The translations under genes and the position numbers were made by a program. Shown piece by piece: positions 1-61,468 of a stretch of DNA of 64,000 bases. The notes beneath the pieces were generated by a model. The model made no database searches and was not told the origin of the DNA. It saw only the letters and a program-made list of their open reading frames with translations. The stretch lies in IMG/VR virus record IMGVR_UViG_3300017717_002521, positions 27,140 to 91,139 of that record; one strand, given 5' to 3'. The number at the start of each line of letters is the position of its first letter. Within the stretch, counting starts at the first letter, position 1. This DNA is from a virus.

Positions 1-221
1 TAGCCGAAGATGATCCTTTTAAAGAATCTTTTCTTAAAATGAATGAAGCAGGTGTAGCTCAAGTAAGAATAGTACCTGCTACAGGAGCTGAAAGATTTTC
101 TCAATTTATTTACGATAAAGTAAATCCCTTTATAAAAGAAGAAACTCAAGGTAGAGTAAAAATATCAAAAGTAGAATTTAGAGAACACGGTAAAAACTCA
201 GCAATATATGAGCCTAGGTAG
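1..221 (+). CDS. queD: 6-carboxytetrahydropterin synthase, C-terminal part (gene starts before the window)
   Basis: QueD converts dihydroneopterin triphosphate to 6-carboxytetrahydropterin, the first committed step to 7-deazaguanines. The reading frame is open from base 3, so only the C-terminal ~72 residues are present. Visible family features are the PATGAERFSQFIYDKV helix, equivalent to the PTAENIA-type segment, and the terminal FREHGKNSAIYEP strand, which carries the catalytic Glu of the family. The internal Met at base 39 is not the true start. The end overlaps queE by 14 bases, so the two are translationally coupled. The fold is small and only its end is seen, but the context (queE, folE and queF nearby) makes the call firm. 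Confidence 0.85.
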   Translation, partial: AEDDPFKESFLKMNEAGVAQVRIVPATGAERFSQFIYDKVNPFIKEETQGRVKISKVEFREHGKNSAIYEPR

Positions 222-984
222 AATAGAAGACTACAATAAAAATTTACCAATAGTAGAAGTATATACTGCAGTACAATCGGAAGGTTCAAGACAAGGTTTT
301 CCTACTATTGTTATTAGAACTACTGGTTGCACTCATAGGTGTTACTTCGGTGAAGGTGGCTGGTGTGATAGCTGGTATACAAGTATTCATCCAGAAAAAG
401 GTAAGTTTAATTTTAATGACATTATTAAAGCATATGATGATAATCCTCATATATCAGAAATGATGTTAACTGGTGGTTCTCCTACTATGCATGGTAAACT
501 TGTAAATGAACTTACACATTTTGCTAATGAAAGAGATATCTTTATTACAATAGAGAATGAAGGTAGTCATTTTTTACCTACTGACTATCCTATAGATTTA
601 CTTTCTATTAGTCCTAAGTTTAGTAACTCTATTCCTCAACTAGGAGTAGAAACTCCTCAAGGTAAGATTGTAGATGAAAAAATGATTAAACAGCATAATA
701 AGTTTAGACTTAATAAAGATGCTATAAAAAAGTCAATAGAGTATCATAAGGATTATCATATTAAACCTGTATTAGATAAAGATTTAAGGATTTATGGTGA
801 AGTTTATAAATTCTTAGAAGAGTTAGAGATACCTAATGAAAAAGTTTGGTGTATGCCTGCAGGTGATGATAGAGAATCTTTAATGGAAAGCTACCCAGTT
901 GTTATGGACTTTGTTAGAGATAAAGGATATAGATTTACTGGTAGAGCACATATTATGGCGTTTAATACTGAAAGAGAAGTATAA
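208..984 (+). CDS. queE: 7-carboxy-7-deazaguanine synthase, radical SAM
   Basis: QueE turns 6-carboxytetrahydropterin into 7-carboxy-7-deazaguanine (CDG) using a [4Fe-4S] cluster and S-adenosylmethionine. It is 258 residues long. The N-terminal VYTAVQSEGSRQGFPTIVIR segment holds the substrate-binding QSEG. The cluster cysteines are C41, C45 and C53, spaced C-x3-C-x7-C rather than the textbook CxxxCxxC; QueE enzymes are known to vary here. LTGGSPT (~residues 90-96) is the SAM-binding glycine motif, followed by the IENEGS segment. It overlaps queD and is followed at once by a small ORF. A ferredoxin gene 600 bases downstream could supply electrons. The alternative, an anaerobic NrdG-like activase, is unlikely because of the queD/folE/queF context. 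Confidence 0.93.
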   Translation: MSLGRIEDYNKNLPIVEVYTAVQSEGSRQGFPTIVIRTTGCTHRCYFGEGGWCDSWYTSIHPEKGKFNFNDIIKAYDDNPHISEMMLTGGSPTMHGKLVNELTHFANERDIFITIENEGSHFLPTDYPIDLLSISPKFSNSIPQLGVETPQGKIVDEKMIKQHNKFRLNKDAIKKSIEYHKDYHIKPVLDKDLRIYGEVYKFLEELEIPNEKVWCMPAGDDRESLMESYPVVMDFVRDKGYRFTGRAHIMAFNTEREV

Positions 985-2403: not shown

Positions 2404-4878
2404 ATGAGAAAACTCGTTACAGTGCTGTTAATGTTTTTAGCAGTTGGAGCTTACGCTCAAGAAACGAGTACTGATTCTAAGACCATCTTAGATGTAAACT
2501 TAGAAGAAGTTGTTGTATCGTCTAGAGTTATTGATGTCGCAAAAGAAAGAGAGACACCAATTGCAGTTAGTACGATCTCAGCACAAGAAGTACTCCTTAA
2601 AGTAGGAAACCAAGAGTTTCCAGAAATTATGAACAAGACACCTGGAGTGTATGCTACTAAACAAGGAGGAGGATACGGTGATAGTCGTATTTCTTTAAGA
2701 GGTTTCGATCAGCGTAATACTTCTTTCCTTATTAACGGTCAACCCGTTAATGATATGGAAAATGGTTGGGTTTATTGGTCAAACTGGCAAGGATTGACAG
2801 ACGTGACGTCTAGCATCCAAATCCAACGTGGTCTTGGTGCCACATCGTTAGCAGTTCCTTCAGTCGGTGGAACTGTTTCTATTTTCACTAAGAGTGCAGA
2901 GAAAGCTCAAGGTGGGTCTATTACTCAAATGGTAGGTAACGACGGTTACATTAAAACAACCGCTCTTTACAATACTGGAGTAAATGACAAAGGATGGTCT
3001 TCTTCTTATTTATTGACTAAATGGTCTGGTAACGGATATATTTACAATACTTCAGGAGCTGGTTGGACTTATTTTGCATCTGTTGGTTACACACCAGAAG
3101 GTTCAAAACATAGCCTAAACTTATCAGTTTTAGGTGCTGGACAATGGCATCATCAAAGAGATGTTTGGGTATCTATTAGAGATTACCAGAACTTTGGTAA
3201 AGCCGGTATTGATCAGAGATGGAATACTAACGGTGGAACGTTAAATGGTAGTGAGTATAACTTACGTAGAAACTTCTACAATAAACCTCTTGCTACTCTA
3301 AACTGGGATTGGGATATTTCAGAAAACGTTCAATTAAATACATCTGTATACGGTTCAGCCGGAAGAGGTGGAGGAACAGGTCCTAGAGGTAGAAACTATT
3401 ATGAAGGATCTATCGATATGTTACCTTTCCGTAAGGATCTAACAGAACACTACCTAGAAGATGGTAAAGGAACTAGAAATGCTGATGGTACTATTAACTA
3501 TGACGCAGTAGTTGCTCATAACTCACAATACGAAGTAGGGTCTCATAATGATAAAGATTACGCTAGAAACGTATTAGTACGAAGAGCATCTATGAACTCT
3601 CATAACTGGATTGGAGCTATCTCTAAGCTTAATATCCAGAAAGGTAGTATGAGATATTCATTAGGATTAGATCTTAGGGATTACACAGGTTATCACTACA
3701 GAGCAATGAATGATCTATTAGGTCTTAATCAATATGCTTCTACTGGTAACCAAAACTTAAGTACTCAACTATATAATTCATCTGATTTAATATCAGCTAA
3801 CCCATTTAGAGGTACTAATATTGGTGATAATGAAGCAAAGATTGCTTATTATAATATTGGATTTGTAAAATGGGCTGGATTTAACGGATTAGTAGAATAT
3901 GCTGGTGATAAGATTACTGCAGTACTACAAGCCGGAGCATCTAACCAACAGTTCCAAAGAGAAGATAGATTTGCAAACGTAGATAATCCTATTTCTGATA
4001 AAGCTAACTTAGGTGGTGGATATCTTAAAGGAGGATTAAACTATAACTTTACTGAAAAATCTAACGTATTTGTAAACGCTGGATTTATTGACCGTCAGCC
4101 TTTATTTGACGCAGTATTCCCTAACTTTGGAAATGACGTTAATCCAGACCTACAAAATGAACGTATCGAATCATTTGAGATTGGGTATGGTTATATAGGT
4201 AAGAGATTAAGACTAAATGTTAATGCATATAACACTAACTGGGGTAATAGATTTGTTTCTAGAAGTTTATCTAACCAACAAGGTGTAGATGGTACAGCTC
4301 AGTTTAGAAATATTGATGTAACACATAAAGGTTTCGAAGCTGAAGGTACTTACACAGTAGGAGGTACTAAGCTTAGAGGTATGCTATCTATTGGGGATTG
4401 GACTTATACTAAAGACTTTGAAGCAGAGTTATTTGATGAGAATCAACAATCTATCGGTACTGGTAAACTTTACTTAAAAGGAGCTAAAGTAGGAGATGCT
4501 GCACAAACTACAGCATTATTAGGTATTGATCAGAAGATTGGGTCGAACATTAGAGTTGATCTAGATTACAGATTTGTAGATAACCTATACGCTGACTATA
4601 GTATTACTGATTCAGCTTTTACTTCTCCTGATAATGATGGAGCGTTAAAACTACCTTCATTCGGTTTATTAGATTTAGGAGCTACATTTTATGCTAATAA
4701 TGGATGGTCGTTAAGAGCGAATATTAATAACTTATTAGATGAAACTTATATTGCAGAGTCTAATAGTAATATTCATACAGATGCTGATTCCACTACTTGG
4801 AACGGTGTTGATGTTAGAAATAGTGTTTGGTTCGGCTTCGGTAGAACTTGGAACGTTTCTCTCAAATATAAATTTTAA
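2404..4878 (+). CDS. TonB-dependent outer-membrane receptor
   Basis: A complete 824-residue TonB-dependent receptor, a class that imports siderophores, vitamins or glycans across the outer membrane. The Sec signal is MRKLVTVLLMFLAVGAYAQ. A TonB-box-like segment LEEVVVSSRVI (~residues 34-44) precedes a plug domain (~residues 50-170) with RISLRGFDQRN and GLGATSLAVPSVGGTV. The rest is an aromatic-rich 22-strand-type barrel ending in WNVSLKYKF with the C-terminal Phe needed for outer-membrane insertion. There is no carboxypeptidase-like N-terminal domain and no adjacent SusD. No truncation is seen, so it could be functional. Such receptors are typical host genes, and its Arg codon use (several CGT codons early on) looks somewhat more host-like than its AGA-rich neighbours. 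A strong terminator follows. Confidence 0.95.
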   Translation: MRKLVTVLLMFLAVGAYAQETSTDSKTILDVNLEEVVVSSRVIDVAKERETPIAVSTISAQEVLLKVGNQEFPEIMNKTPGVYATKQGGGYGDSRISLRGFDQRNTSFLINGQPVNDMENGWVYWSNWQGLTDVTSSIQIQRGLGATSLAVPSVGGTVSIFTKSAEKAQGGSITQMVGNDGYIKTTALYNTGVNDKGWSSSYLLTKWSGNGYIYNTSGAGWTYFASVGYTPEGSKHSLNLSVLGAGQWHHQRDVWVSIRDYQNFGKAGIDQRWNTNGGTLNGSEYNLRRNFYNKPLATLNWDWDISENVQLNTSVYGSAGRGGGTGPRGRNYYEGSIDMLPFRKDLTEHYLEDGKGTRNADGTINYDAVVAHNSQYEVGSHNDKDYARNVLVRRASMNSHNWIGAISKLNIQKGSMRYSLGLDLRDYTGYHYRAMNDLLGLNQYASTGNQNLSTQLYNSSDLISANPFRGTNIGDNEAKIAYYNIGFVKWAGFNGLVEYAGDKITAVLQAGASNQQFQREDRFANVDNPISDKANLGGGYLKGGLNYNFTEKSNVFVNAGFIDRQPLFDAVFPNFGNDVNPDLQNERIESFEIGYGYIGKRLRLNVNAYNTNWGNRFVSRSLSNQQGVDGTAQFRNIDVTHKGFEAEGTYTVGGTKLRGMLSIGDWTYTKDFEAELFDENQQSIGTGKLYLKGAKVGDAAQTTALLGIDQKIGSNIRVDLDYRFVDNLYADYSITDSAFTSPDNDGALKLPSFGLLDLGATFYANNGWSLRANINNLLDETYIAESNSNIHTDADSTTWNGVDVRNSVWFGFGRTWNVSLKYKF

Positions 4879-5950: not shown

Positions 5951-6161
5951 AGAACTACTTTACAAGATTTTCGTTGTCTTCATCGGTACAGGTTGCATGA
6001 TGGTCGGACCATTTTTCGTTAACTTCCTACTAGGTAAAATATTATCTGTTATTGGGTTAGCATTACTAACAGTTCAAACTCAAAGAACTAAATCTTATAA
6101 TCTATCTCTACTTAATGTAGTAGGTATATGCGGTTACCTATATAGCATCTTTACTCAATGA
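5943..6161 (+). CDS. small membrane protein, 72 aa
   Basis: Not recognised. Two to three transmembrane helices cover most of the protein (residues ~8-42 and ~55-70), with a short polar loop TQRTKSYN. It overlaps the nuclease gene by eight bases and the next gene by four. A distant likeness to the C-terminal part of the membrane protein at 11940 (short helices ending in GYxLYxI) is visible. Confidence 0.7.
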   Translation: MSKELLYKIFVVFIGTGCMMVGPFFVNFLLGKILSVIGLALLTVQTQRTKSYNLSLLNVVGICGYLYSIFTQ

Positions 6162-6691
6162 GCAAGTTAATTAATTTATTTGGAGGCCCCGGAATAGGAA
6201 AAAGTGGAATTGCAGCAGGTTTAACATATGAATTAAAAAGGAAGCATATAAGTTGTAACAACCCTTATGAGTTCCCTAAAAAACTGGCATGGGATAAAAA
6301 CTATCCAGCTATACAAGATCAGTTATATGTATTTGCTAATCAACATAGAGGTATAGCAGAGTGTTACAATAAAGTAGACTATATTATCATTGACTCTCCC
6401 GTAATGTTTTCTACTATCTATCATAGCTACTATACAAAAGGATACCCAGCAGAAAACTATGGACAATCGTTTCATAATATGGTAGTTGATCTTCATAATA
6501 CTTACGATAATCTTAACATACTACTAAAGAGATCGAATACAGAGATTAATGAAGCAGAAAGATTTCAAGATCTTAAACAATCTATAGAGATTGATGAATT
6601 ATGTAAAGCTAAGTTAGAGGAACATAATTTACCGTACGTTGAAATAGAGGTAAATGATGATACAGTAAATGAAATATTAAAATTGTTATAA
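6158..6691 (+). CDS. P-loop NTPase, kinase-like
   Basis: A 177-residue AAA/P-loop protein. Walker A is GGPGIGKS (residues 9-16) and a Walker-B-like strand is YIIIDSPV. The small size and central lid-like region suggest a nucleotide or small-molecule kinase or a generic phage ATPase rather than a helicase. It is coupled by ATGA overlaps to the genes on both sides; the phosphoribosyltransferase directly downstream hints at a nucleotide-metabolism role. Confidence 0.75.
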   Translation: MSKLINLFGGPGIGKSGIAAGLTYELKRKHISCNNPYEFPKKLAWDKNYPAIQDQLYVFANQHRGIAECYNKVDYIIIDSPVMFSTIYHSYYTKGYPAENYGQSFHNMVVDLHNTYDNLNILLKRSNTEINEAERFQDLKQSIEIDELCKAKLEEHNLPYVEIEVNDDTVNEILKLL

Positions 6692-8627: not shown

Positions 8628-9341
8628 ATGCCTAAAAAATTTATAGAAGGAACTGAATTAGTTCGTGCCGGTTTTGCTAACGGTATATCAAGTCAACTAG
8701 CAAAGAAACAACAAACTGAAGGACCTGAAGCAAGGTTAGATTCAGAAGAAAAACAAGTTATAATAGAAAATGCTGCTAAAGCATATGGAGACTTCTTAAC
8801 TGCTCTAGGATGTAATTATAAAGAAGATCCTAACTCTTCAGATACTCCAATGAGAGTAGCAAAAGCATACGTTAACGATTTATGGGCTGGAAGATATAGT
8901 CCACTAGACCGTATTACAGCATTTCCATCAGACGGTTATGACGGTATAGTTCAAGAGAGTAACATACCTGTAACGTCTATGTGTTCTCACCACCATCAAG
9001 CTATTAGAGGTACAGTAAGTATTGCTTATATAGCATCTCAAGATGGTAAAGTAGTAGGTTTATCTAAACTAAATAGAATAGTAGAGCAGTTCGGTAGAAG
9101 AGGTGCTATACAAGAACAGCTGACTGTAGCTATACATAATGCTGTAGATAAGATATGTGAAGGTAACTTAGGAGTAGCAGTACAAGTGAATGCAACTCAT
9201 GCATGTGTATCATGTAGAGGAGTAAAGCATCATAGTGCTTCAATGCAAACAGCTAAACTTACAGGTGCTTTCTTAGATGAAGATTCTGCTAAAGCAGAGT
9301 TCTACAAGAATATAGAATTAGCAAGTATATGCAAACATTAA
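8628..9341 (+). CDS. folE: GTP cyclohydrolase I
   Basis: FolE converts GTP to dihydroneopterin triphosphate, the precursor used by QueD. It is 237 residues. The zinc and active-site motifs are TSMCSHHHQA, LSKLNRIVEQFGRR, QEQLT and HACVSCRGV. The N-terminal ~45 residues are a family-variable extension. It has its own promoter and heads the cluster that runs to queF. In phages FolE nearly always serves 7-deazaguanine synthesis rather than folate, which fits queD/queE upstream. Confidence 0.96.
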   Translation: MPKKFIEGTELVRAGFANGISSQLAKKQQTEGPEARLDSEEKQVIIENAAKAYGDFLTALGCNYKEDPNSSDTPMRVAKAYVNDLWAGRYSPLDRITAFPSDGYDGIVQESNIPVTSMCSHHHQAIRGTVSIAYIASQDGKVVGLSKLNRIVEQFGRRGAIQEQLTVAIHNAVDKICEGNLGVAVQVNATHACVSCRGVKHHSASMQTAKLTGAFLDEDSAKAEFYKNIELASICKH

Positions 9342-9345
9342 TATT

Positions 9346-9918
9346 ATGAAAGGTAAACAATTATCACTATTTCCAGAAGAAGCAGATAACGTATGGGTTA
9401 ACGATTACGTACCGTTTGTATCTGAAGTAGAAACATTTAACGAAACATTTAACAAACCGAACAACTATGAACCAACCATCCCATCTGAAAAAGAGTGGAA
9501 ATTCGTTTATAACTTTATCCTCGAAGAACTCGAAGAATATAGAGAAGCTTGCGAACGAGGCGACATTGTGGAAGTTCTGGACGCTTTGTGCGACATTGCT
9601 TATGTTTCCATTGGGAACGGGACTATGTTACATGGCCTTAAAAATAAGATATGGCCGGCATATCAAGAGGTACAAGCTTCAAATATGTCGAAAGCTTGTT
9701 CGACTGAAGAAGAGGCCATACAGAGTGTCAGCAAAAGAAGTAAGGAACAAGGTGAGGCCTGTCATTTTGAGAAGGTTGCGGAGGGACGGTACATTGTCTA
9801 TCGTACAAGAGACAGAAAAGTAATGAAGAGTAATAATTACTTTAGACCAGACTTACAGCAGTTCTTTAGCGGTGATGATATTGTAAGAACAAGACCCCAA
9901 CAACATTCAGGAATATGA
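9346..9918 (+). CDS. MazG-like nucleotide pyrophosphohydrolase
   Basis: A 190-residue all-alpha NTP pyrophosphatase-fold protein. EELEEYREA followed by EVLDALCDIAYV gives the metal-binding ExxE...ExxD pattern, and QASNMSKA is a conserved follow-on segment. About 45 N-terminal residues and 55 C-terminal residues extend the core. Phage members are thought to dephosphorylate non-canonical or signalling nucleotides; here it may clean the dNTP pool or remove ppGpp-like signals. Bases ~9480-9830 are distinctly richer in G+C and use CTC/GAC/GCG codons unlike the rest, suggesting recent acquisition of the core. Confidence 0.82.
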   Translation: MKGKQLSLFPEEADNVWVNDYVPFVSEVETFNETFNKPNNYEPTIPSEKEWKFVYNFILEELEEYREACERGDIVEVLDALCDIAYVSIGNGTMLHGLKNKIWPAYQEVQASNMSKACSTEEEAIQSVSKRSKEQGEACHFEKVAEGRYIVYRTRDRKVMKSNNYFRPDLQQFFSGDDIVRTRPQQHSGI

Positions 9919-10127: not shown

Positions 10128-10922
10128 ATGATTAAAATAGCTCATGAAGCTCCTATAGATATTTTTGACGAAGTTCAAAGGTTAACTGATTACGATTACG
10201 CTTTAGTTCATTTATTAGAGCAAAATGGTAGATATAGAGATACGTTTGAAAGAGCAGTTAAAAGAGGTAGAGAAGTTATTTTAGATAACTCTATTTTTGA
10301 GTTAGAAGAAGCATTTGAAGCTGATAGATTTGCATTATGGGTTGAAAGATTAAAACCTACTTGGTATATAGTTCCAGATGCATTGGAGAATGCTGAAAAG
10401 ACTATGGAACAAGCACTTGATTGGGTTAAAAGTTATAAAAGTATACCTGGGAAAAAAATAGGTGTTGTTCAAGGTAAAAACTATCACGAGATTGTAGCTT
10501 GTTATAAGTTTATGGACACTAGAGATATTGATATGATAGCTATTTCATTCGATTATTCGTATTATAGTGATTCTATTCCTCATCCTAACAAGTATGTTAG
10601 CTGGATGCTAGGACGTGTTAAGCTACTAGGAGATTTAGAGAGAGACGGTATAATTAATAAAGATAAACCTCATCACTTACTAGGTTGTGGATTACCTCAA
10701 GAATTTAGTTTTTATAAAAATGCTAACTATAAATGGCTCTACTCTTTAGATACTTCTAACCCAGTAGTCCACGGTCTAAAAGGTATAGAGTATGACAGAG
10801 AAGGACTTTGGTCTAAAGAATCTCAAAAGTTACATGAATTAATTAATGTACCTATAGAAGAGATTGATATTGAGAAAGTAACTAGTAATATAGAGAAGTT
10901 TAGATGGCTAACAAATGGATAA
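10128..10922 (+). CDS. dpdA: DpdA-like DNA 7-deazaguanine transglycosylase (TGT superfamily)
   Basis: A 264-residue TIM-barrel protein related to tRNA-guanine transglycosylase. Matching landmarks in order are VILDNSIFEL (D53; compare LDSGGFQ in TGT), YIVPDALEN (D84), IGVVQGKNYHE (compare IVQGG), IAISF, HHLLGCGLPQEF (compare hyLMGVG) and YSLDTSNPVVHG (D208), where TGT has the nucleophilic Asp. The CxCxxC zinc site of tRNA-modifying TGTs is missing, as in phage DpdA proteins that exchange guanine in DNA. Sitting between folE and queF, it is the likely enzyme inserting the deazaguanine base into phage DNA. The DpdA subfamily cannot be assigned by eye. Confidence 0.8.
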   Translation: MIKIAHEAPIDIFDEVQRLTDYDYALVHLLEQNGRYRDTFERAVKRGREVILDNSIFELEEAFEADRFALWVERLKPTWYIVPDALENAEKTMEQALDWVKSYKSIPGKKIGVVQGKNYHEIVACYKFMDTRDIDMIAISFDYSYYSDSIPHPNKYVSWMLGRVKLLGDLERDGIINKDKPHHLLGCGLPQEFSFYKNANYKWLYSLDTSNPVVHGLKGIEYDREGLWSKESQKLHELINVPIEEIDIEKVTSNIEKFRWLTNG

Positions 10923-11431
10923 CATTCTTCAGTCAAACTGGAGCTGAGATAGCTGATTTATCTGAAAATATTGGAAGATGGCCTGATATTATTATTACTA
11001 ATAGTAGACCAGACCACTTAAGAACTATAGATCCTAGAATAGTAGAATACGGTTATACTGAAGTACCTAATAAACCTACAGTAAGTGATTTAGATGCTGT
11101 ATTACAAGATAATGCTGTTATAACATTACATGGTTGGTTGAGGATAATGCCTGAAGTAATATGTAATAAGTATTTGATTTATAATGGTCATCCTGGACTT
11201 ATTACTAAATATCCTGAACTTAAGGGTAAAGATCCTCAAGTAAAAGCTCATAAACTTGGACATGAAGTAGCAGGTGCAGTTATACATAAAGTAACAGCAG
11301 GAGTAGATGAAGGTAGGATTATTATGGAGGAATATTTCAATGCTACTCAGTTGGATCTTGATAGTTTATTTCGTATATTAAGAGATAGATCATTGTATAT
11401 GTGGTCTAATCTACTTAAACAGGTTTTATGA
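10904..11431 (+). CDS. formyltransferase (PurN-like), candidate dPreQ1 formyltransferase
   Basis: A 175-residue N10-formyl-tetrahydrofolate-dependent transferase fold. The catalytic trio of the family is present: N94 and H96 in YNGHPGL, and D135 in TAGVDEGRII. Upstream is LHGWLRIMP, equivalent to the LAGYMRIL strand of PurN. It overlaps dpdA by 19 bases and is followed by queF one gene later. PurN itself makes purines, but the position inside a preQ1 cluster fits DpdN, the name given to the predicted enzyme that formylates dPreQ1. Which role is right is inference. Confidence 0.75.
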   Translation: MANKWITFFSQTGAEIADLSENIGRWPDIIITNSRPDHLRTIDPRIVEYGYTEVPNKPTVSDLDAVLQDNAVITLHGWLRIMPEVICNKYLIYNGHPGLITKYPELKGKDPQVKAHKLGHEVAGAVIHKVTAGVDEGRIIMEEYFNATQLDLDSLFRILRDRSLYMWSNLLKQVL

Positions 11432-11942
11432 TAAAAAGAATAGCTTTAGTTGGAGCAAGTAGTACTGGTAAGACTACTGTTTTTGAATTACTTAAGAATA
11501 AATTACCTAAGTATGAGTTCGTAAACGAATCTACTCGTAATGTAGCTAAGTACGGATTTCCTATTAATGAGTTTGGTACTGATGCTACTCAACTTGCTAT
11601 TAGTAGCTTTCATTTAGAAGCTTTACTTAAACCTTATAATCTTATTCTAGATAGATGTTATATGGATCTTATAGTCTATACTAATCATATGGATGTTGAT
11701 GATTCTACTAAAGATTATATAGAAGAGACTTGGCATAGAGTAAAAGGAGAGTATACTCATTATATTTATTTTCCTATTGAATTTTAATCTGTAGATGATG
11801 GAGTAAGAAGTGTTAATGAGGATTGGAGAAAAGATATAGATAATGAATTTAAAAAGTATCTTGAGACTGTAAGAAAGCCTTACTTAACTATAACTGGTTC
11901 TCCTATGCAAAGGGTTAACCAAATATTAGAGTTTATAAAATG
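11428..11942 (+). pseudogene. P-loop kinase-like gene interrupted by an in-frame ochre codon
   Basis: The frame begins MIKRIALVGASSTGKTTVF (Walker A GASSTGKTT) with LILDRCYMDLIVYT, as in NadR/AAA_28-type kinases, and stops at TAA 11785-11787 after 119 residues. The same frame continues without another stop to TGA 11940-11942, giving SVDDGVRSVNEDWRKDID and a further helical end, a segment that normally follows the YFPIEF strand in this family. A single base change (TAA from GAA, CAA or AAA) explains it. The gene is either broken by a nonsense mutation, read through, or affected by a sequencing error. The downstream gene still starts at the old ATGA overlap, so the original end is 11942. Confidence 0.82.
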
Positions 11943-12293
11943 AGAGTATGTAATGTCTGTCATGAAGAAAAGAGAGATGTTAAATATAAACATGAAAGTA
12001 AAAAAACATGTATTAAATGCGAAACCAGATGGTGGAGAGTATTCCTCAGAGCTTTAGTTAAGGAACGTAGACTTACACCTATAGAGAGAATAGCTAATAG
12101 AGCAGGGTATATGGGATCAGCTTTTATTATGATGTCTCCTTACTTATTAAAATACGATAATATAGGAGCATACACATATGTTCTAGGAGCCTTACTTACC
12201 ATACCTCAAGTATGGATTGCAAAGCAATGGAATATAGTAGCATTGAATATTAACCTTTTAGTCGGGTATGGACTATACATAATTAATTCTTAA
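11940..12293 (+). CDS. zinc-ribbon membrane protein, 117 aa
   Basis: Not recognised by name. The N-terminus has two CxxC knuckles (CNVC at residues 4-7 and CIKC ~22 residues on), then a basic amphipathic stretch, then three hydrophobic helices (residues ~52-66, 72-88 and 97-115). The start is ATG overlapping the stop of the interrupted kinase frame. The end of the membrane part resembles the small membrane protein at 5943. Confidence 0.7.
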   Translation: MRVCNVCHEEKRDVKYKHESKKTCIKCETRWWRVFLRALVKERRLTPIERIANRAGYMGSAFIMMSPYLLKYDNIGAYTYVLGALLTIPQVWIAKQWNIVALNINLLVGYGLYIINS

Positions 12294-12295
12294 AT

Positions 12296-13201
12296 ATGAG
12301 TGAAGTTAAAAATTATGAAGCAGTAAAAGAAATTGCTTCTAAACATTTAGGTAAAGTAGGCGGTGATGGTTATAGTGATCAATACAACGCTGAATTATTA
12401 GTTAAAATACCTCGAGTATTAAATCGAGAGGGGTATGGATTAACCGGTAAAGAATTTAAAGGTGTTGATACCTGGAACGCCTATGAAGTATCAGCTATAA
12501 CTACTAAAGGTCAACCCGTTGCTGGGATGTTAAAAATAGTTTGTCCTTCTGATAGTGAATATCATGTAGAGTCAAAATCTATTAAACTATACCTTAATTC
12601 ATTTAATATGACTGAGATTGGAGATACAGCAGCTGATTGTATTACCGGCATAGAAGCTAGAGTAAAAAGAGATTTAGATGAGTTATTGGAAACTATTACT
12701 ACCATAAGCTTTTATGCTTCAGAATTTGAAACTGAACCTCTTTCTTTTGCTAATGATTATAAAGATCTAGGTGAGGAAGTTAACTTAGATTTGATAGACT
12801 TTACTGCATTTAAGTCAGATGCTACTCAATTAGAGGTAAAAGAAGAAGAAGGTGAAATAAAATTTAGATCTAATCTATTAAGGTCTAACTGTAGAGTAAC
12901 TAATCAGCCGGATTGGGGAGATGTATTTATTTATATGAAAGGAAGTAAATTACCTGTAGCTGATTCGTTAGCTAAATATATAGTAAGTCATAGGACAGTT
13001 AGTCATTTTCATGAGGAGATATGCGAAATGATATTTGCTCATCTAAGTGAAAGATTTGAACCTGAGCAATTAATGGTGTCGTGTTTGTATACTCGTAGAG
13101 GAGGAATAGATATTAATCCTATTAGAGCTACTCATAGTTATTTAATACCAGAGTTTTTTACTAACCCCGATTTTACTATTAGAAAAACTTTAAGACAGTA
13201 A
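12296..13201 (+). CDS. queF: NADPH-dependent preQ0 reductase
   Basis: QueF reduces the nitrile of preQ0 to the aminomethyl group of preQ1. It is 301 residues, the long E. coli-like two-module form. GVDTWNAYEVS and ESKSIKLYLNSFN (E92) form the QueF signature; SNCRVTNQPDWGD holds the catalytic C199 and D206, seven apart as in E. coli QueF. FHEEICEMIF and YTRRGGIDINPIR complete the match. Its presence means the pathway is built to make preQ1 rather than stop at preQ0 or CDG. It ends at a TAATG coupling to the next gene. Confidence 0.95.
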   Translation: MSEVKNYEAVKEIASKHLGKVGGDGYSDQYNAELLVKIPRVLNREGYGLTGKEFKGVDTWNAYEVSAITTKGQPVAGMLKIVCPSDSEYHVESKSIKLYLNSFNMTEIGDTAADCITGIEARVKRDLDELLETITTISFYASEFETEPLSFANDYKDLGEEVNLDLIDFTAFKSDATQLEVKEEEGEIKFRSNLLRSNCRVTNQPDWGDVFIYMKGSKLPVADSLAKYIVSHRTVSHFHEEICEMIFAHLSERFEPEQLMVSCLYTRRGGIDINPIRATHSYLIPEFFTNPDFTIRKTLRQ

Positions 13202-14493: not shown

Positions 14494-16866
14494 ATGCAGT
14501 TAGAAAAAAAGTACTATACCGTCCAAGACTCAGAGACGTTAAAGTTAATGTTCCAACACATTGAAGAGTCAGATACTCTAGCAGTCGATACTGAAACGAC
14601 TGGTCTTAACCCTCGTAAGGATAAAATTATTGGATGGTCTATATCAGGAGATGAAGGTATTGGCTTTTATCTACCTACTCTAGTATGGAACTTCGAGCAA
14701 GGTACTTTAGACTTACAGACTATTGATGGTACTTCAACTGAAGTATTATCTAAAAACTTACTTAAGATGTTATTAGGTAAGAAGCTAGTATTTCACAACG
14801 CTTCGTTTGATGTTCAGTTTATAAAAAACTATTTCGGAGTTAATCTACTACCTGATGTTTGGGTCGATACTGGACTACTTGTTCATACAGTTTATGAAGA
14901 AGGAGCATTTGGATTTGGTAATCCATTTGGTTTGAAATCTATTGCTATAATGAATCAAGAAGCATTAGGTTTAGATGTTGAGAAAGCTGCTAACGAAGAA
15001 CAAGTTGAACTAAAAGAAAGTATTAAACGAAATGGTGGAAGCGTTACTAAAGAGAGTTTTGAAATATATAAAGCAGATTTGGATATCCTTTCTAAATATG
15101 CTAGTGCTGATACTGACCTCACACTTCGCATTTGTAATCTATATCTGGCTAAACTTAAGGAAGAAGGATTAGAAGATTTCTTTTTCAAAGATGAAGTTAT
15201 GCCTATCTATCGTGAGGTTACCGTTCCTATGGAAGCTCATGGTGTAGACTTAGATACTGAATTAATAGAGAAGATACATGGAGAGATTGTAGAAGATCAG
15301 AAAAAGAATAAAGAGATAGTAATGAAGTCTCTCTTAGCTATACCTGAAGTTAAAGAATGGGTAGTAGCTACGTCTATTGAAGCATACCCTTTTTCCCATA
15401 AAGGTAATTGGGCTCAGAGATTAGTACAAAGGTATTCTTTACCTTTACCTAAATCTGAAAAAACTGGTAAGTATTCTCTTACTGCAAAGTATATTAATGA
15501 ACTAGAAGAATCAAACGTCAAGCAATTCCTACTAACCGGGGACCATACCCTTATTGAAGACGTTGAAAAATATAGAATCTCTATGTCTCTTTGGAAAGAA
15601 TCTAATGATGGAGATTATATCAATATACAATCTAAAAAGCACTTGGGTGAAATAGTCTTCGGTTACATGGGAATTCAACCTAAAGTATCAGGTGCTAATA
15701 CTAAGTCCGGTAGAGATAAGTTCGATATGAAAATGGTTGAAGAGTTAGCGAAAACGTATCCCTGGGCAGAGAATCTTAGAGTCTATAATAAGTTACTTAA
15801 GATTAAATCTACTTACGTAGACAGGTTTAGAGACCGTCAGGAAGATGGTAGATATTACTTCTACTTTAAACAAAATGGTACTGTATCTGGTAGATATGGT
15901 TCTGACGCTCAACAGCTACCTAAACCTCTTGAAGAAGGAGAAGATGCTCCTGTGATTATGAAGTACGTTAATATTGTTAGACGTTTCTTGGTTGCCGGAA
16001 ATGGTAGGAAGGTTATTGATGCAGATTACGAATCGTTAGAGCCTCACTGCTTTGCTTCAGTAACAGGAGATAAAAAACTACAAGAGATCTTTAATAATGG
16101 ATGGGACTTTTATTCTACTGTTGCTATACAGACTGAAAAGCTAGAAGGAGTATCAGCAGATAAAAAAGCTGATAACTATCTAAAGAAACTTGATCCTGTT
16201 AAACGTAATAAAGCTAAGGCATACTCATTAGGTATTGCTTATGGAATGGAAGCTTATGCTCTTAAAATGTCTCTTAACGTAGATCAAAAGACTGCTGAAG
16301 GATTAGTAAAAGGTTACTTAGATGGGTTTCCTCAACTCAAGGAATGGAGAGAAAGATCAAGAGAACAAGTCAAAGCTAATGGTAGAATACAGAACTATGT
16401 AGGACGTATTCGTCACTTACCTAAAGTTCAAAGACTCTATGATAAGTTTGAAGATCGTATGATGGATTGGAGATTTAGAAAAGAGTTAGAGACTAGGATA
16501 CCTCCTAAATATATTAAGAAAGACGGTGAGATAGTTAAGACTGTATCTCCTAGGGATCAAGTAACTCAAGCATATAGAGATTACCGTAACGGACTTAATA
16601 ACTGTCTTAACTTTCAGTTACAGTCATTAGCAGCAGCGGTAGTTAACAGGGCTGCATTAAAGATAAACTTGAAAGCTAAAGAGTTAGGTATAGATGCTCT
16701 ATGTCAAGCACAAGTACATGACCAGTTGATTATAAACGTAGATGAGAAAGATGCAGAAATGTTTGCTCCTTACGTACAAGAGATAATGGAGAATACTACT
16801 AAGTTACCTGGAGTAACTTTGAAAGCACCTCCTGAGATAGCTAATAACTGGGCAGAAGGACATTAA
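14494..16866 (+). CDS. DNA polymerase, family A, with 3'-5' exonuclease
   Basis: A 790-residue replicative polymerase. The 3'-5' exonuclease domain has DTETTGLNPRKDK (Exo I), HNASFDVQFI (Exo II) and YASADTDLTLR (Exo III). In the polymerase domain motif A is DADYESLEPH (~residue 509), motif B is KRNKAKAYSLGIAYG (~570-584) and motif C is QVHDQLII (H742, D743). There is no 5'-3' exonuclease domain. The second motif A residue pattern (DYESLEP) differs from the DYSQIEL of bacterial Pol I, as is common in phages. Its own promoter and a conserved AAAGGTTAT leader stand upstream. A T4-like phage would carry a B-family enzyme, so this is a different lineage. Confidence 0.97.
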   Translation: MQLEKKYYTVQDSETLKLMFQHIEESDTLAVDTETTGLNPRKDKIIGWSISGDEGIGFYLPTLVWNFEQGTLDLQTIDGTSTEVLSKNLLKMLLGKKLVFHNASFDVQFIKNYFGVNLLPDVWVDTGLLVHTVYEEGAFGFGNPFGLKSIAIMNQEALGLDVEKAANEEQVELKESIKRNGGSVTKESFEIYKADLDILSKYASADTDLTLRICNLYLAKLKEEGLEDFFFKDEVMPIYREVTVPMEAHGVDLDTELIEKIHGEIVEDQKKNKEIVMKSLLAIPEVKEWVVATSIEAYPFSHKGNWAQRLVQRYSLPLPKSEKTGKYSLTAKYINELEESNVKQFLLTGDHTLIEDVEKYRISMSLWKESNDGDYINIQSKKHLGEIVFGYMGIQPKVSGANTKSGRDKFDMKMVEELAKTYPWAENLRVYNKLLKIKSTYVDRFRDRQEDGRYYFYFKQNGTVSGRYGSDAQQLPKPLEEGEDAPVIMKYVNIVRRFLVAGNGRKVIDADYESLEPHCFASVTGDKKLQEIFNNGWDFYSTVAIQTEKLEGVSADKKADNYLKKLDPVKRNKAKAYSLGIAYGMEAYALKMSLNVDQKTAEGLVKGYLDGFPQLKEWRERSREQVKANGRIQNYVGRIRHLPKVQRLYDKFEDRMMDWRFRKELETRIPPKYIKKDGEIVKTVSPRDQVTQAYRDYRNGLNNCLNFQLQSLAAAVVNRAALKINLKAKELGIDALCQAQVHDQLIINVDEKDAEMFAPYVQEIMENTTKLPGVTLKAPPEIANNWAEGH

Positions 16867-18883: not shown

Positions 18884-20928
<2,045 letters not shown>

Positions 20929-44963: not shown

Positions 44964-45676
44964 CTAAAAAATTAAATATACTTATTCCAATGGCTGGAGC
45001 TGGAAGTAGATTCCAAGAGGCAGGATATAATCTTCCTAAGCCATTGATAGATGTTAAAGGTAAACCTATGATTCAACACGTGGTCGAAAATATTGCTTTA
45101 GAAGGTAGATATATTTTTATAGTCCAAAAAGAACATTACGAAAAATATTCTTTAAAATATATTCTTAAATTAATTAAACCAGACTGTGAAATTATTATTA
45201 CGGATGGATTAACTGAAGGAGCAGCATCAACTACTTTACTTGCTAAAGATTTAATAAATACAGATGATGCTTTATTGATAGCTAATTCTGATCAATGGAT
45301 AGATTGGGCTCCTAATCATTTTTATGATTACGTTAACAGAAGAAATGCTGATGGAGCTATACTTTCTTTTATATCTAATTCTCCTAAACATAGTTACTCT
45401 AAAATAGAGAATGGTTATATAACTGAAGTAGCAGAAAAAAAAGTTATTAGTAATCATGCAACAGTAGGAATATACTATTGGAAAAAAGGAAGAGACTATA
45501 TAGACTGTACTAATAATATGATAGAAAAAAACATAAGGTATAATAATGAATTTTATGTCTGCCCAGTTTATAATCAACTGATAGAAAAAGGTGGGATGGT
45601 TCTTCCATACGCTATACCACAGATGCACGGTATGGGAACTCCTGAAGAATTAAATAAATTTCTTAGTATAAATTAA
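44960..45676 (+). CDS. sugar-phosphate nucleotidyltransferase
   Basis: 238 residues. LNILIPMAGAGSRFQEAGY is the GxGxRF nucleotide-binding loop; LPKPLIDVKGKPMIQHVV the PKP signature Lys; LLIANSDQWIDW the metal-binding Asp; VAEKKVISNHATVGIYYW the sugar-binding region. It activates a sugar phosphate to an NDP-sugar. It ends exactly where the RuBisCO-like gene begins (TAATG), so the two may act on the same precursor. Confidence 0.9.
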   Translation: MTKKLNILIPMAGAGSRFQEAGYNLPKPLIDVKGKPMIQHVVENIALEGRYIFIVQKEHYEKYSLKYILKLIKPDCEIIITDGLTEGAASTTLLAKDLINTDDALLIANSDQWIDWAPNHFYDYVNRRNADGAILSFISNSPKHSYSKIENGYITEVAEKKVISNHATVGIYYWKKGRDYIDCTNNMIEKNIRYNNEFYVCPVYNQLIEKGGMVLPYAIPQMHGMGTPEELNKFLSIN

Positions 45677-46860
45677 TGAATATATTTAAATTAGAATCTC
45701 AGATAAATAAAGATGAATATTTTATAGTGGAATACTATCTAGGTTCCTCTATTAATCTTAGAGAAGCATCATGGCAACTTGCTATAGGTCAAAGTGTCGG
45801 TAATCCTAACGTTCGTAATAGATGGGAAACTGATGAATTATTCGAAAAGTATTCATGTTTAATATTAGATACTGAAAAGAACTTAAGTCAAAAAAAAGAA
45901 GGTAAGGTTAAAATAGCTTTTCCTGTAATTAATATAGATTTTAAAACTGATGGTATTGCTCATTTGTTAGTTAACATTATGGGAGGTCAAATGGATATAG
46001 AATCAATTGATGTATGTCAAGTATTAAATATATACTTTCCTCAATCGGTTCATGATCTATTTTTAGGACCTAAATTTGGAATAGAAGGCATAAGAAAATT
46101 TACAGGAGTAAATAATAAACCTTTACTAGGTGCTATAGTTAAACCTAAAACTGGTATAAGTGCTAGTCTGCTCTTACAGATGGTAAAAGAATTAGTAGAA
46201 GGAGGAGTTAATTTTATTAAAGAGGATGAAATTATGTCTAACCCTTCTTTCTGTACTATAGAAGAAAGAGTTCCATTAATAATGGATTACTTGAAAGATA
46301 AAAATGTTATTTATTCTGTCTCTATCCATGCTGATCCTCATCAAGTACTAGAGAGAGTAAAACTTGTTCATAAGCTAGGAGGTAATAGCGTTCACGTTAA
46401 TTTCTGGTGTGGAATGGGTATATATAAATCTATAAGAGAACTTGATCTTCCATTATTTGTACATTTTCAAAAAAGTGGAGATAAAATACTTACTAACCGT
46501 AAACATAATTACTATATTGAATGGAAAGTTATTAGTAAACTAGCAGGTATGATGGGAGTAGACTTTATTCATGCAGGTATGATAGGAGGGTACTATAAAT
46601 GGGACGAAGACGAAGTATTAGATTCAGTAGACGAACTACATAAATATGGAGTAATGCCAGCTTTAAGTTGCGGGTTTCATCCTGGGCTAACTGATTTGGT
46701 TTGTAAAAAAGTTGGTAATGATTTTATGGCTAATGTTGGAGGAGCTATTCATGGACATCCCGAAGGTACTTTAGCAGGAGCTAAAGCAATGAGACAAAGC
46801 TTAGATAAAAAGTATGGAGTAGAATATTTTCAAGCTATATCTAAATGGGGTAAAGCATAA
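45676..46860 (+). CDS. RuBisCO-like protein (form IV type)
   Basis: A 394-residue member of the RuBisCO large-subunit superfamily. Landmarks: GAIVKPKTGIS (K156, K158, equivalent to spinach K175/K177), FIKEDEIMSNP with K182, D184 and E185 at the positions of carbamylated K201, D203 and E204, H263 at the H294 place, FIHAGMIGG with H299 (H327), SCGFHPG with S331 (S379) and NVGGAIHGHPEGT (phosphate loop). The loop 6 Lys (K334) is Tyr306 and R295 is Phe264, so carboxylation of ribulose bisphosphate is unlikely. RuBisCO-like proteins instead enolise, isomerise or decarboxylate related sugar acids or sulfur compounds. Its place after a nucleotidyltransferase and among glycosyltransferases suggests making an unusual sugar. 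Confidence 0.9.
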   Translation: MNIFKLESQINKDEYFIVEYYLGSSINLREASWQLAIGQSVGNPNVRNRWETDELFEKYSCLILDTEKNLSQKKEGKVKIAFPVINIDFKTDGIAHLLVNIMGGQMDIESIDVCQVLNIYFPQSVHDLFLGPKFGIEGIRKFTGVNNKPLLGAIVKPKTGISASLLLQMVKELVEGGVNFIKEDEIMSNPSFCTIEERVPLIMDYLKDKNVIYSVSIHADPHQVLERVKLVHKLGGNSVHVNFWCGMGIYKSIRELDLPLFVHFQKSGDKILTNRKHNYYIEWKVISKLAGMMGVDFIHAGMIGGYYKWDEDEVLDSVDELHKYGVMPALSCGFHPGLTDLVCKKVGNDFMANVGGAIHGHPEGTLAGAKAMRQSLDKKYGVEYFQAISKWGKA

Positions 46861-59638: not shown

Positions 59639-61468
59639 ATGAAAGGAACATTATTTTCAGCAGATTTTGTATTCGATTCGTCGAATAATGCTAGGTTATT
59701 AGAAATTAATACTGATACTTCTTTAACTACCCCCGGTAATGAAAATTTAGATTTTACAGATTTTGGCACTGTTTTATCAGATAGCTCTCTGGATACTCTT
59801 CATATTATCTTTAAGCCTTTTCACCAACTAATAGTAGATAAATTAGTAGATTTTGTAAATAATAATGTTTCAAACATTACTACAATAACATTTCAAGAAG
59901 AAGAAACATGTTCGCTTTATGTAGGTGCAGTTGAAGATGCTAGTAATAAGTTTATACTTAGAATGGCTTACGATGAAGCAGCTATATTAGATTCTGAATA
60001 CGCTAAATCTGAAATAAAATTATATAGTTTATTCAATACTAATAGTGATTTAGATTCTTTACCTCCCTCTTATCATTCTTCTTCTGTTCACGGTATAATA
60101 GATACTATTTCTCAATCGTTTAATGACCCTAATATTCCTGACTTTGTTAAAAAAACTGAAAACGCATCTGGAGCTACTTTATTATCTATAGGATTCTTAA
60201 AAGCAGGTCTTCCGGAAACAGGATCAGATTATAGACTTAATACTTTAATAGAAGAACAAAAAAAAGAAGATGTATTAATATCTAATTTTTTACCCAACCT
60301 ATCAGGTTCTTATACTACTTCAGTAAGATCTATGCAAATAGTATATGGTAATGATTTAGATTTATGTTTTGTTGGTGAACATCAACAAGTTTCTTTATTT
60401 GATATTCCTTCTTCTATTACTACTGGGAGTCTTGACGGTTCTGACAAAGTCTCTCACGAGGTCCATCAAAAACACAGACACGAATTTACAACGAATCATC
60501 CTAAGTATAAGGGAGGTTTAATTAAAACTACTAATATTCTCAGCTCATCAGGTGATGCGTTTAATATTCAAACACTTAACTCTGGATCTGATTACTTTTA
60601 CCAATCTTACTTTGTATCTGGTTCTCCGGATACTGATGCTGTAACTGAACTTAACGATTGGTTTTACTCAGGATCTAACTTTCCTTCAGGTTCCTATTTG
60701 ACTTCTTCTAATGTAATTTTAGTAGAAGAAAACCTTAATCCTGATTTAGACATATACAAATTAGAATTAGAATCTGGTGATACTTTCTTATTAGGAAGTG
60801 TATCTTTATTACCGGTATTAGATACTGGCTCTAATGTAATTACTTGGAAATCTACTGAAAAAGTTTTACCCGGTAATAAAGTATTTGACGAGAATAATAC
60901 TTCCTATTCAGTAGTTTCTAATACTTATCAAATTTCTGATACTAATGGGGAATATGATCTTTATCAACCTAATATGGAAGTAATAGATACTTATATACTT
61001 AAAGGCTCTAGTATGAATTTATTAGTTCATAACCCCTTTGGAGCGGGTAGAGGAGGATGCTTTATTAAAGGTACTGAAATTACTTTACCTAACGGTGATA
61101 ATAAAGCTATAGAAGATATAACTCAAGGTGAGGAAATATTAACTCACAATCATGATTCCGGATTAGACGAAGTAGGTGTAGTAGGTTTTATAGAAACTCT
61201 AGAAGCAAATAAAATAATTAAGATAACTACGGATGGTAAACATACAAAGGAAATTACCTGCACCCTTGAACATCCTTTTTATGCTAATGGTAAGTATATC
61301 CAAGCAGAATATTTAGAAGTTATGGATCTATTGCATACAAATTATGGTGAGGATGTATTTATAAGCAAAGTAGAAATTTTAGACGAAACTCATACAGTCT
61401 ATAATTTAAGAGACGTATCTGATAACCATAACTTTTATGCTAACAACATATTAGTTCATAATAAATAA
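59639..61468 (+). CDS. large protein with C-terminal Hint (intein-like) domain
   Basis: 609 residues. The start FSADFVFDSSNNARLLEINT resembles an ATP-grasp end or a conserved virion protein segment; the middle 400 residues are Ser/Thr/Asn-rich beta-type structure. From residue 474 (GGCFIKGTEITL) to the stop lies a ~136-residue Hint domain: C474, block B TLEH (T542-H545), and the terminal VHN (H607, N608) followed by a single Lys. Such domains self-cleave or transfer the upstream part to a nucleophile. Probable virion or tail-fibre-type protein that is processed; that role is inference. Confidence 0.85.
   Translation: MKGTLFSADFVFDSSNNARLLEINTDTSLTTPGNENLDFTDFGTVLSDSSLDTLHIIFKPFHQLIVDKLVDFVNNNVSNITTITFQEEETCSLYVGAVEDASNKFILRMAYDEAAILDSEYAKSEIKLYSLFNTNSDLDSLPPSYHSSSVHGIIDTISQSFNDPNIPDFVKKTENASGATLLSIGFLKAGLPETGSDYRLNTLIEEQKKEDVLISNFLPNLSGSYTTSVRSMQIVYGNDLDLCFVGEHQQVSLFDIPSSITTGSLDGSDKVSHEVHQKHRHEFTTNHPKYKGGLIKTTNILSSSGDAFNIQTLNSGSDYFYQSYFVSGSPDTDAVTELNDWFYSGSNFPSGSYLTSSNVILVEENLNPDLDIYKLELESGDTFLLGSVSLLPVLDTGSNVITWKSTEKVLPGNKVFDENNTSYSVVSNTYQISDTNGEYDLYQPNMEVIDTYILKGSSMNLLVHNPFGAGRGGCFIKGTEITLPNGDNKAIEDITQGEEILTHNHDSGLDEVGVVGFIETLEANKIIKITTDGKHTKEITCTLEHPFYANGKYIQAEYLEVMDLLHTNYGEDVFISKVEILDETHTVYNLRDVSDNHNFYANNILVHNK

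Follow-up and report, generated by a model that had tools for sequence, protein, structure and literature searches.

What does a small formyltransferase act on when its gene overlaps that of a putative DNA-guanine transglycosylase? An earlier note on the window, which forms the 64-kb end of a 91-kb virus record, raised this question and proposed a preQ1 formyltransferase of the DpdN type. The genes of the locus and of the preQ1 pathway are the following (window positions unless stated otherwise):

1..221, + strand: QueD-like gene, C-terminal part (whole gene L076:8894-9361, same record)
208..984, + strand: QueE, 7-carboxy-7-deazaguanine synthase (radical SAM)
6158-6691: second AAA_28 kinase-like gene, an intact paralogue (PHROG thymidylate kinase family), between queE and folE
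8628..9341, + strand: FolE, GTP cyclohydrolase I
9346..9918, + strand: MazG/PRA-PH-like nucleotide pyrophosphohydrolase, a frequent but not universal cassette neighbour
10128..10922, + strand: DpdA, a short protein resembling DNA-guanine transglycosylases, 264 aa, with a TIM-barrel TGT fold and apparently without the zinc domain
10904..10922, + strand: 19-nt overlap of the dpdA end and the formyltransferase start
10904..11431, + strand: formyltransferase, DpdN-type candidate, 175 aa, ATG start, PF00551 core only, N94/H96/D135
11428..11787, + strand: P-loop nucleotide-kinase-like gene (AAA_28), ended early by an in-frame TAA (11785-11787), after which the frame is open to 11943
11940-12293: 117-aa ORF between the kinase-like gene and queF
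12296..13201, + strand: QueF, two-domain NADPH-dependent preQ0 reductase (preQ1 synthase), with ESKSxK, Cys199 and Asp206
14494..16866, + strand: family A DNA polymerase, a conserved downstream neighbour

A core-domain formyltransferase of phages

The ORF at 10904-11431 matched PF00551 with 38.7 bits (cut-off 26.1), and the N94/H96/D135 triad, described as intact in the earlier note, was indeed invariant across 47 of 47 aligned homologues. Its stated overlap with the dpdA-like gene was also found (19 nt shared with 10128-10922), and its stop codon overlaps the start of the next ORF as ATGA. The gene is not one gene away from queF as had been claimed: two ORFs lie between them, at 11428-11787 (kinase-like) and 11940-12293. 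The AlphaFold2 model showed a formyltransferase fold (pLDDT 88), with PurN structures as best structural matches (Z 14.2, 167 residues, rmsd 2.8-2.9). Homologues were detected in 70 viral loci with one query and in 510 stretches with a profile-derived pattern, and the ORF is thus not a product of chance. Among 84,980 bacterial and archaeal species genomes we obtained a single match, on a phage-like contig, indicating a phage rather than a housekeeping function. PADLOC gave no defence-system match for the formyltransferase, the transglycosylase, the kinase or QueF.

The protein carries the core domain only, like PurN, which would suit a small molecule as substrate a little more than DNA; the median pI of the family (6.0) is neutral in this respect. 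PF00551 also takes in sugar N-formyltransferases of the same fold (VioF, PseJ, ArnA), and many ORFs of the window are sugar-related, so that formylation of an amino-sugar nucleotide for the glycans of the phage's many glycosyltransferase-like genes has to be considered. However, these sugar enzymes are longer, and the phage gene overlaps dpdA within a queuosine-type cassette found in dozens of phages. We regard a role in glycan synthesis as very improbable.

A short transglycosylase-like neighbour with a TGT fold

The upstream gene (10128-10922) encodes a protein which, in terms of the published classes, we take to be DpdA3-like. Pfam returned no match for its 264 aa, and the NCBIfam tgt_general match was weak (E 0.0025). 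The AlphaFold2 model (pLDDT 93.3) was closest to TGT structures (Z 17.9, 230-233 residues aligned, rmsd 2.9-3.0) and gave Z 17.7 with 7ui4, a crystal structure of bacterial DpdA, which inserts preQ0 into DNA. The fold was seen by structure search only; searching PDB sequences with a profile of the transglycosylase gave no match. At 264 aa, the modelled protein is shorter than the TGT and DpdA structures (355-413 aa) and apparently lacks their zinc subdomain. Four residues, D53, D84, Q115 and D208, do not vary among 41 homologues and stand in TGT-like motifs (LDNS, PD, VVQG, SLDTSNP). Judging by these motifs and by a weak profile alignment to E. coli TGT (E 0.011 and 0.04), which covers the Gln motif and LLGxGxPxE only, they may include the catalytic Asp pair and the base-pocket Gln of TGT.

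The transglycosylase shares 67.9% identity with the product of the gene annotated DpdA in Flavobacterium phage immuto, and 39.5% with its counterpart in Campylobacter phage CP220 (Firehammervirus), of a type with dADG DNA. In CP220 an AAA_28 kinase-like gene follows the transglycosylase gene, as here, but neither queF nor a formyltransferase is present in the flanks examined. In Campylobacter phages of the firehammervirus type, replacement of dG is described as complete. With the BSP7 transglycosylase as query, no matches were obtained among viral sequences.

TGT-fold proteins also act on tRNA, and preQ1 is a tRNA precursor in an established pathway (PMC6884629). The phage could accordingly modify preQ1 in host tRNA, or make a salvage or decoy form of it, rather than a DNA base. 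The neighbour of the formyltransferase is, however, a short TGT-fold protein apparently devoid of the zinc domain, closely related to the DpdA-annotated gene of immuto, and its clade includes proteins of Firehammervirus-type Campylobacter phages, for which a high level of dADG in the DNA is reported (PMC6884629). A tRNA or decoy function thus seems very unlikely.

The record encodes a full route to preQ1

FolE, QueD, QueE, QueF, transglycosylase and formyltransferase had been put forward together as pointing to the modification. All six are present, except that the window itself holds only the C-terminal part of QueD (to position 221). The search for queC upstream of the window, proposed at the same time, was successful: absent from the window, the gene lies at record positions 19014-19805, about 7.3 kb upstream. 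With FolE, QueD-like, QueE, QueC and QueF all in the record, the full GTP-to-preQ1 route is encoded. QueF scored 229 with its NCBIfam equivalog, below the cut-off of 293; its NADPH motif (E92, S93, K94, S95, K97) and C199 and D206 are conserved. In the QueD-like family, homologues printed from a 41-row alignment show QW..HGY at the canonical zinc-ligand histidine site of QueD, which reads AAH..HGH in E. coli QueD.

Other genes of the record were noted on the way. A RuBisCO-large-subunit-like protein is encoded at window 45676-46860 (PF00016, 124 bits; NCBIfam rubisco_III, 190 bits, below the equivalog cut-off). Carbamoyltransferase-like genes lie upstream of the window at L075:14820-16523 (by eye) and L076:5893-7626 (NodU, NCBIfam, 147 bits). 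By eye, the ORF at window 2404-4878 resembles a TonB-dependent receptor. The end of the large ORF 59639-61468 looks like a Hint/intein-type segment (GCFIKGTEITLPNG ... HNFYANNILVHNK), again by eye only.

The formyltransferase family is distinct from PurN

Top sequence and structure matches of the protein are PurN, and its immuto and cyanophage relatives carry the PurN annotation. A simple alternative would be that the phage uses the protein as a GAR transformylase to increase purine synthesis, as cyanophages do, and that its place beside dpdA is incidental. Clustering with purine-synthesis PurN proteins had been named in the earlier note as evidence against the DpdN-type reading. Instead, when 48 members of the family were placed in one tree with PurN, PurU, Fmt and ArnA of E. 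coli, real PurN proteins of cyanophages and other PurN proteins, the family formed its own clade (100/100 split, branch of 2.43 substitutions). Against the PurN equivalog TIGR00639 (NCBIfam), the formyltransferase scored 41.3 bits, below the cut-off of 150.1.

Shared with PurN are the fold, the N/H/D triad and an R-I motif on the folate side; in the alignment, the folate-side R80 and the catalytic N94, H96 and D135 are kept in the family. The GAR side differs: the phosphate loop GNGSN of PurN is replaced by an invariant SQTG-x-E, E173 of PurN is S163 in most family members, and an LKGKDPQ block comes with a 3-residue insertion. The invariant E15 stands at the position of PurN N13 in the GAR loop. 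A Glu at this position makes phosphate an unlikely ligand, whereas the N1/N2 edge of a base resembling guanine would match it. We observed no further purine genes in those ORFs near the formyltransferase that were read, which also counts against a PurN function, as does the tie of the gene to dpdA and queF. Purine synthesis is thus a reading to which we give hardly any credit.

The cassette is conserved and the formyltransferase accompanies queF

The order dpdA - formyltransferase - P-loop kinase-like gene - queF - family A polymerase was kept in the 70 viral loci (41-95% identity), with exceptions at fragment ends and in a few other cases; in most relatives the kinase gene alone lies between formyltransferase and queF. 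The order is also kept in an isolate, Flavobacterium phage vB_FspM_immuto_2-6A, whose immuto26A_67 (QQO91746.1) is 54% identical to the window formyltransferase. Its order, queD-queE-folE-mazG-dpdA-formyltransferase-kinase-queF-polA-groES-groEL, is that of the window; immuto differs in that the gene is annotated PurN, the kinase is intact, and a single gene separates formyltransferase from queF. The groES/groEL genes, at window 18884-20832, stand beside the cassette in other relatives as well as in immuto.

We then compared the transglycosylase clade as 34 clusters (75% identity, full flanks). Formyltransferase, queF and kinase occurred together in 20 clusters, queF and kinase in 8, the kinase only in 2 (CP220-like among them) and none of the three in 4. 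No cluster of these 34 carried a formyltransferase without queF, i.e. the formyltransferase was present in 20/28 clusters with queF versus 0/6 without (Fisher p=0.002, optimistic since clusters share ancestry). Over all dpdA lineages, it was found in 0/34 clusters lacking queF (Fisher p=3e-10, with the same shared ancestry, so that both p values overstate independence). In dpdA lineages of the D479, phiST, BSP7, CC_R7 and 9g types, neither queF nor formyltransferase was detected near dpdA (0/28 clusters). This apparent queF dependence, and the strict association of the gene with dpdA and queF in phages of diverse kinds, fit a preQ1 substrate.

Two fragmentary contigs carry a formyltransferase with queF not detected: L077, a phage-like contig of an incomplete Clostridiales MAG in which dpdA is present, and L072, a 26.9 kb contig in which queC is present and dpdA was not found. 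On L072 (7324-8534) a divergent formyltransferase overlaps a class II glutamine amidotransferase gene beside a dGTP/dATP diphosphohydrolase-type gene, with queC nearby.

MazG was present in 12/18 formyltransferase-bearing clusters and, by a window-type profile, in none of the other lineages. On these counts we dropped MazG as a required part of the cassette.

An exchangeable slot between dpdA and the kinase gene

The position of the formyltransferase is not always filled by the same gene. In three contigs with queF and no formyltransferase, dpdA is separated from the kinase gene by a GNAT acetyltransferase (PF00583, 28.5 bits, cut-off 20.7). Scanning viral contigs for this gene gave four, all of them (4/4) in the order dpdA-GNAT-kinase-queF:

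L232:6801-7346: GNAT in the formyltransferase slot, contig with queF
L240:6801-7346: GNAT in the formyltransferase slot, contig with queF
L202:6804-7346: GNAT in the formyltransferase slot, contig with queF
L354:617-1159: GNAT in the formyltransferase slot, contig with queF

A slot-type GNAT gene occurred in 0 of 50,697 annotated phages, and the slot was empty in 52 loci. A GNAT in the same slot on four contigs is what would be expected of an amine-tailoring position. In the simplest reading of position and fold, the slot would encode enzymes acylating the preQ1 amine, with a formyl group in one set of phages and an acetyl group in the other. Loci with GNAT suggest N-acetyl-preQ1 DNA, and the 52 loci without a slot gene would stop at dPreQ1. 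The comparison thus adds to an enzyme kind already predicted: the formyltransferase occupies a position whose gene can be exchanged, within a cassette that is widespread in phages.

The P-loop kinase-like gene

The kinase-like gene following the slot is full length (~172 aa) in nearly all relatives. Its in-frame TAA in the window means that this cassette may be partly decayed, or reflects an assembly error. The AAA_28 paralogue at 6158-6691 has no clear counterpart in related loci. Within the window/CP220-like clade, a gene for a small kinase-like protein with an N-terminal P-loop was located at most 1.5 kb from dpdA in 24/28 evaluable clusters (background 5.9%); in other lineages such proximity was seen in 6/18 (D479-like), 1/3 (phiST-like) and 0/3 (DpdA1) clusters. 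Kinases of other families touch dpdA in distant isolates, with DNMK in Vibrio D479 and AAA_18 in phiST, besides AAA_28 in CC_R7 and CP220; in BSP7 and Youna2 thymidylate-kinase-like proteins do so (by eye).

According to the current published view, the base is exchanged in DNA after replication. Nucleotide-level replacement is known from T4 hmC and the Z-genome phages, and the kinase and MazG-type neighbours recall such schemes, by analogy and as a lead only. The cassette might then be a modular pre-replicative pathway of guanine replacement: the transglycosylase would act at nucleotide level, the P-loop kinase would phosphorylate the modified deoxynucleotide on its way to a triphosphate for the phage polymerase, and the slot would set the acyl group (formyl here, acetyl by GNAT elsewhere, none in many). 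If true, this would allow total replacement of dG. We consider such a pathway improbable.

A probable DpdN-type enzyme and its predicted product

A 2023 paper by Cui et al. in NAR reportedly predicts DpdN as a dPreQ1 formyltransferase, with fdPreQ1 as predicted product. Among the papers covered by our literature search, none mentioned DpdN along with 7-deazaguanine, and none fdPreQ1. As described, DpdN resembles the protein studied here in being a PF00551-type formyltransferase of a phage with queF and dpdA. The protein is best filed as a new putative member of this kind, already predicted in 2023.

The position outside PurN, the lost GAR-binding residues and the company of dpdA and queF support the DpdN-type reading. 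Counting against it are the two contigs with the gene but no detected queF, the interrupted kinase-like gene of this phage and the absence of the usual QueD zinc-ligand pattern from the QueD-like family. Very probably, the protein is a 10-formyl-tetrahydrofolate-dependent N-formyltransferase acting on preQ1, which would give fdPreQ1 DNA. In the proposed scheme, FolE, QueD, QueE and QueC would convert GTP to preQ0, QueF would reduce it to preQ1, and the short transglycosylase (DpdA) would exchange guanine for the deazaguanine. The formyl group would be added onto the aminomethyl nitrogen of preQ1, either as free base, as nucleotide or after insertion in DNA. The end product would be DNA with 2′-deoxy-7-(formylaminomethyl)-7-deazaguanine. 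Restriction enzymes that recognise guanine should fail to cut such DNA. Hiding from bacterial DNA-cutting defences is the most likely purpose of such a modified guanine.

The family of probable preQ1 formyltransferases, defined by FSQTG-x-E, NGHP, LKGKDPQ and GVDEG, comprises hundreds of phage contigs and one culturable relative, Flavobacterium phage immuto. Such a large family with a clear signature makes DpdN testable, and no longer to be misread as PurN. The cassette further raises two questions open to test: whether the preQ1 amine is also acetylated in some phages, and, given the nucleotide kinase of the clade, whether the base may be exchanged before rather than after replication.
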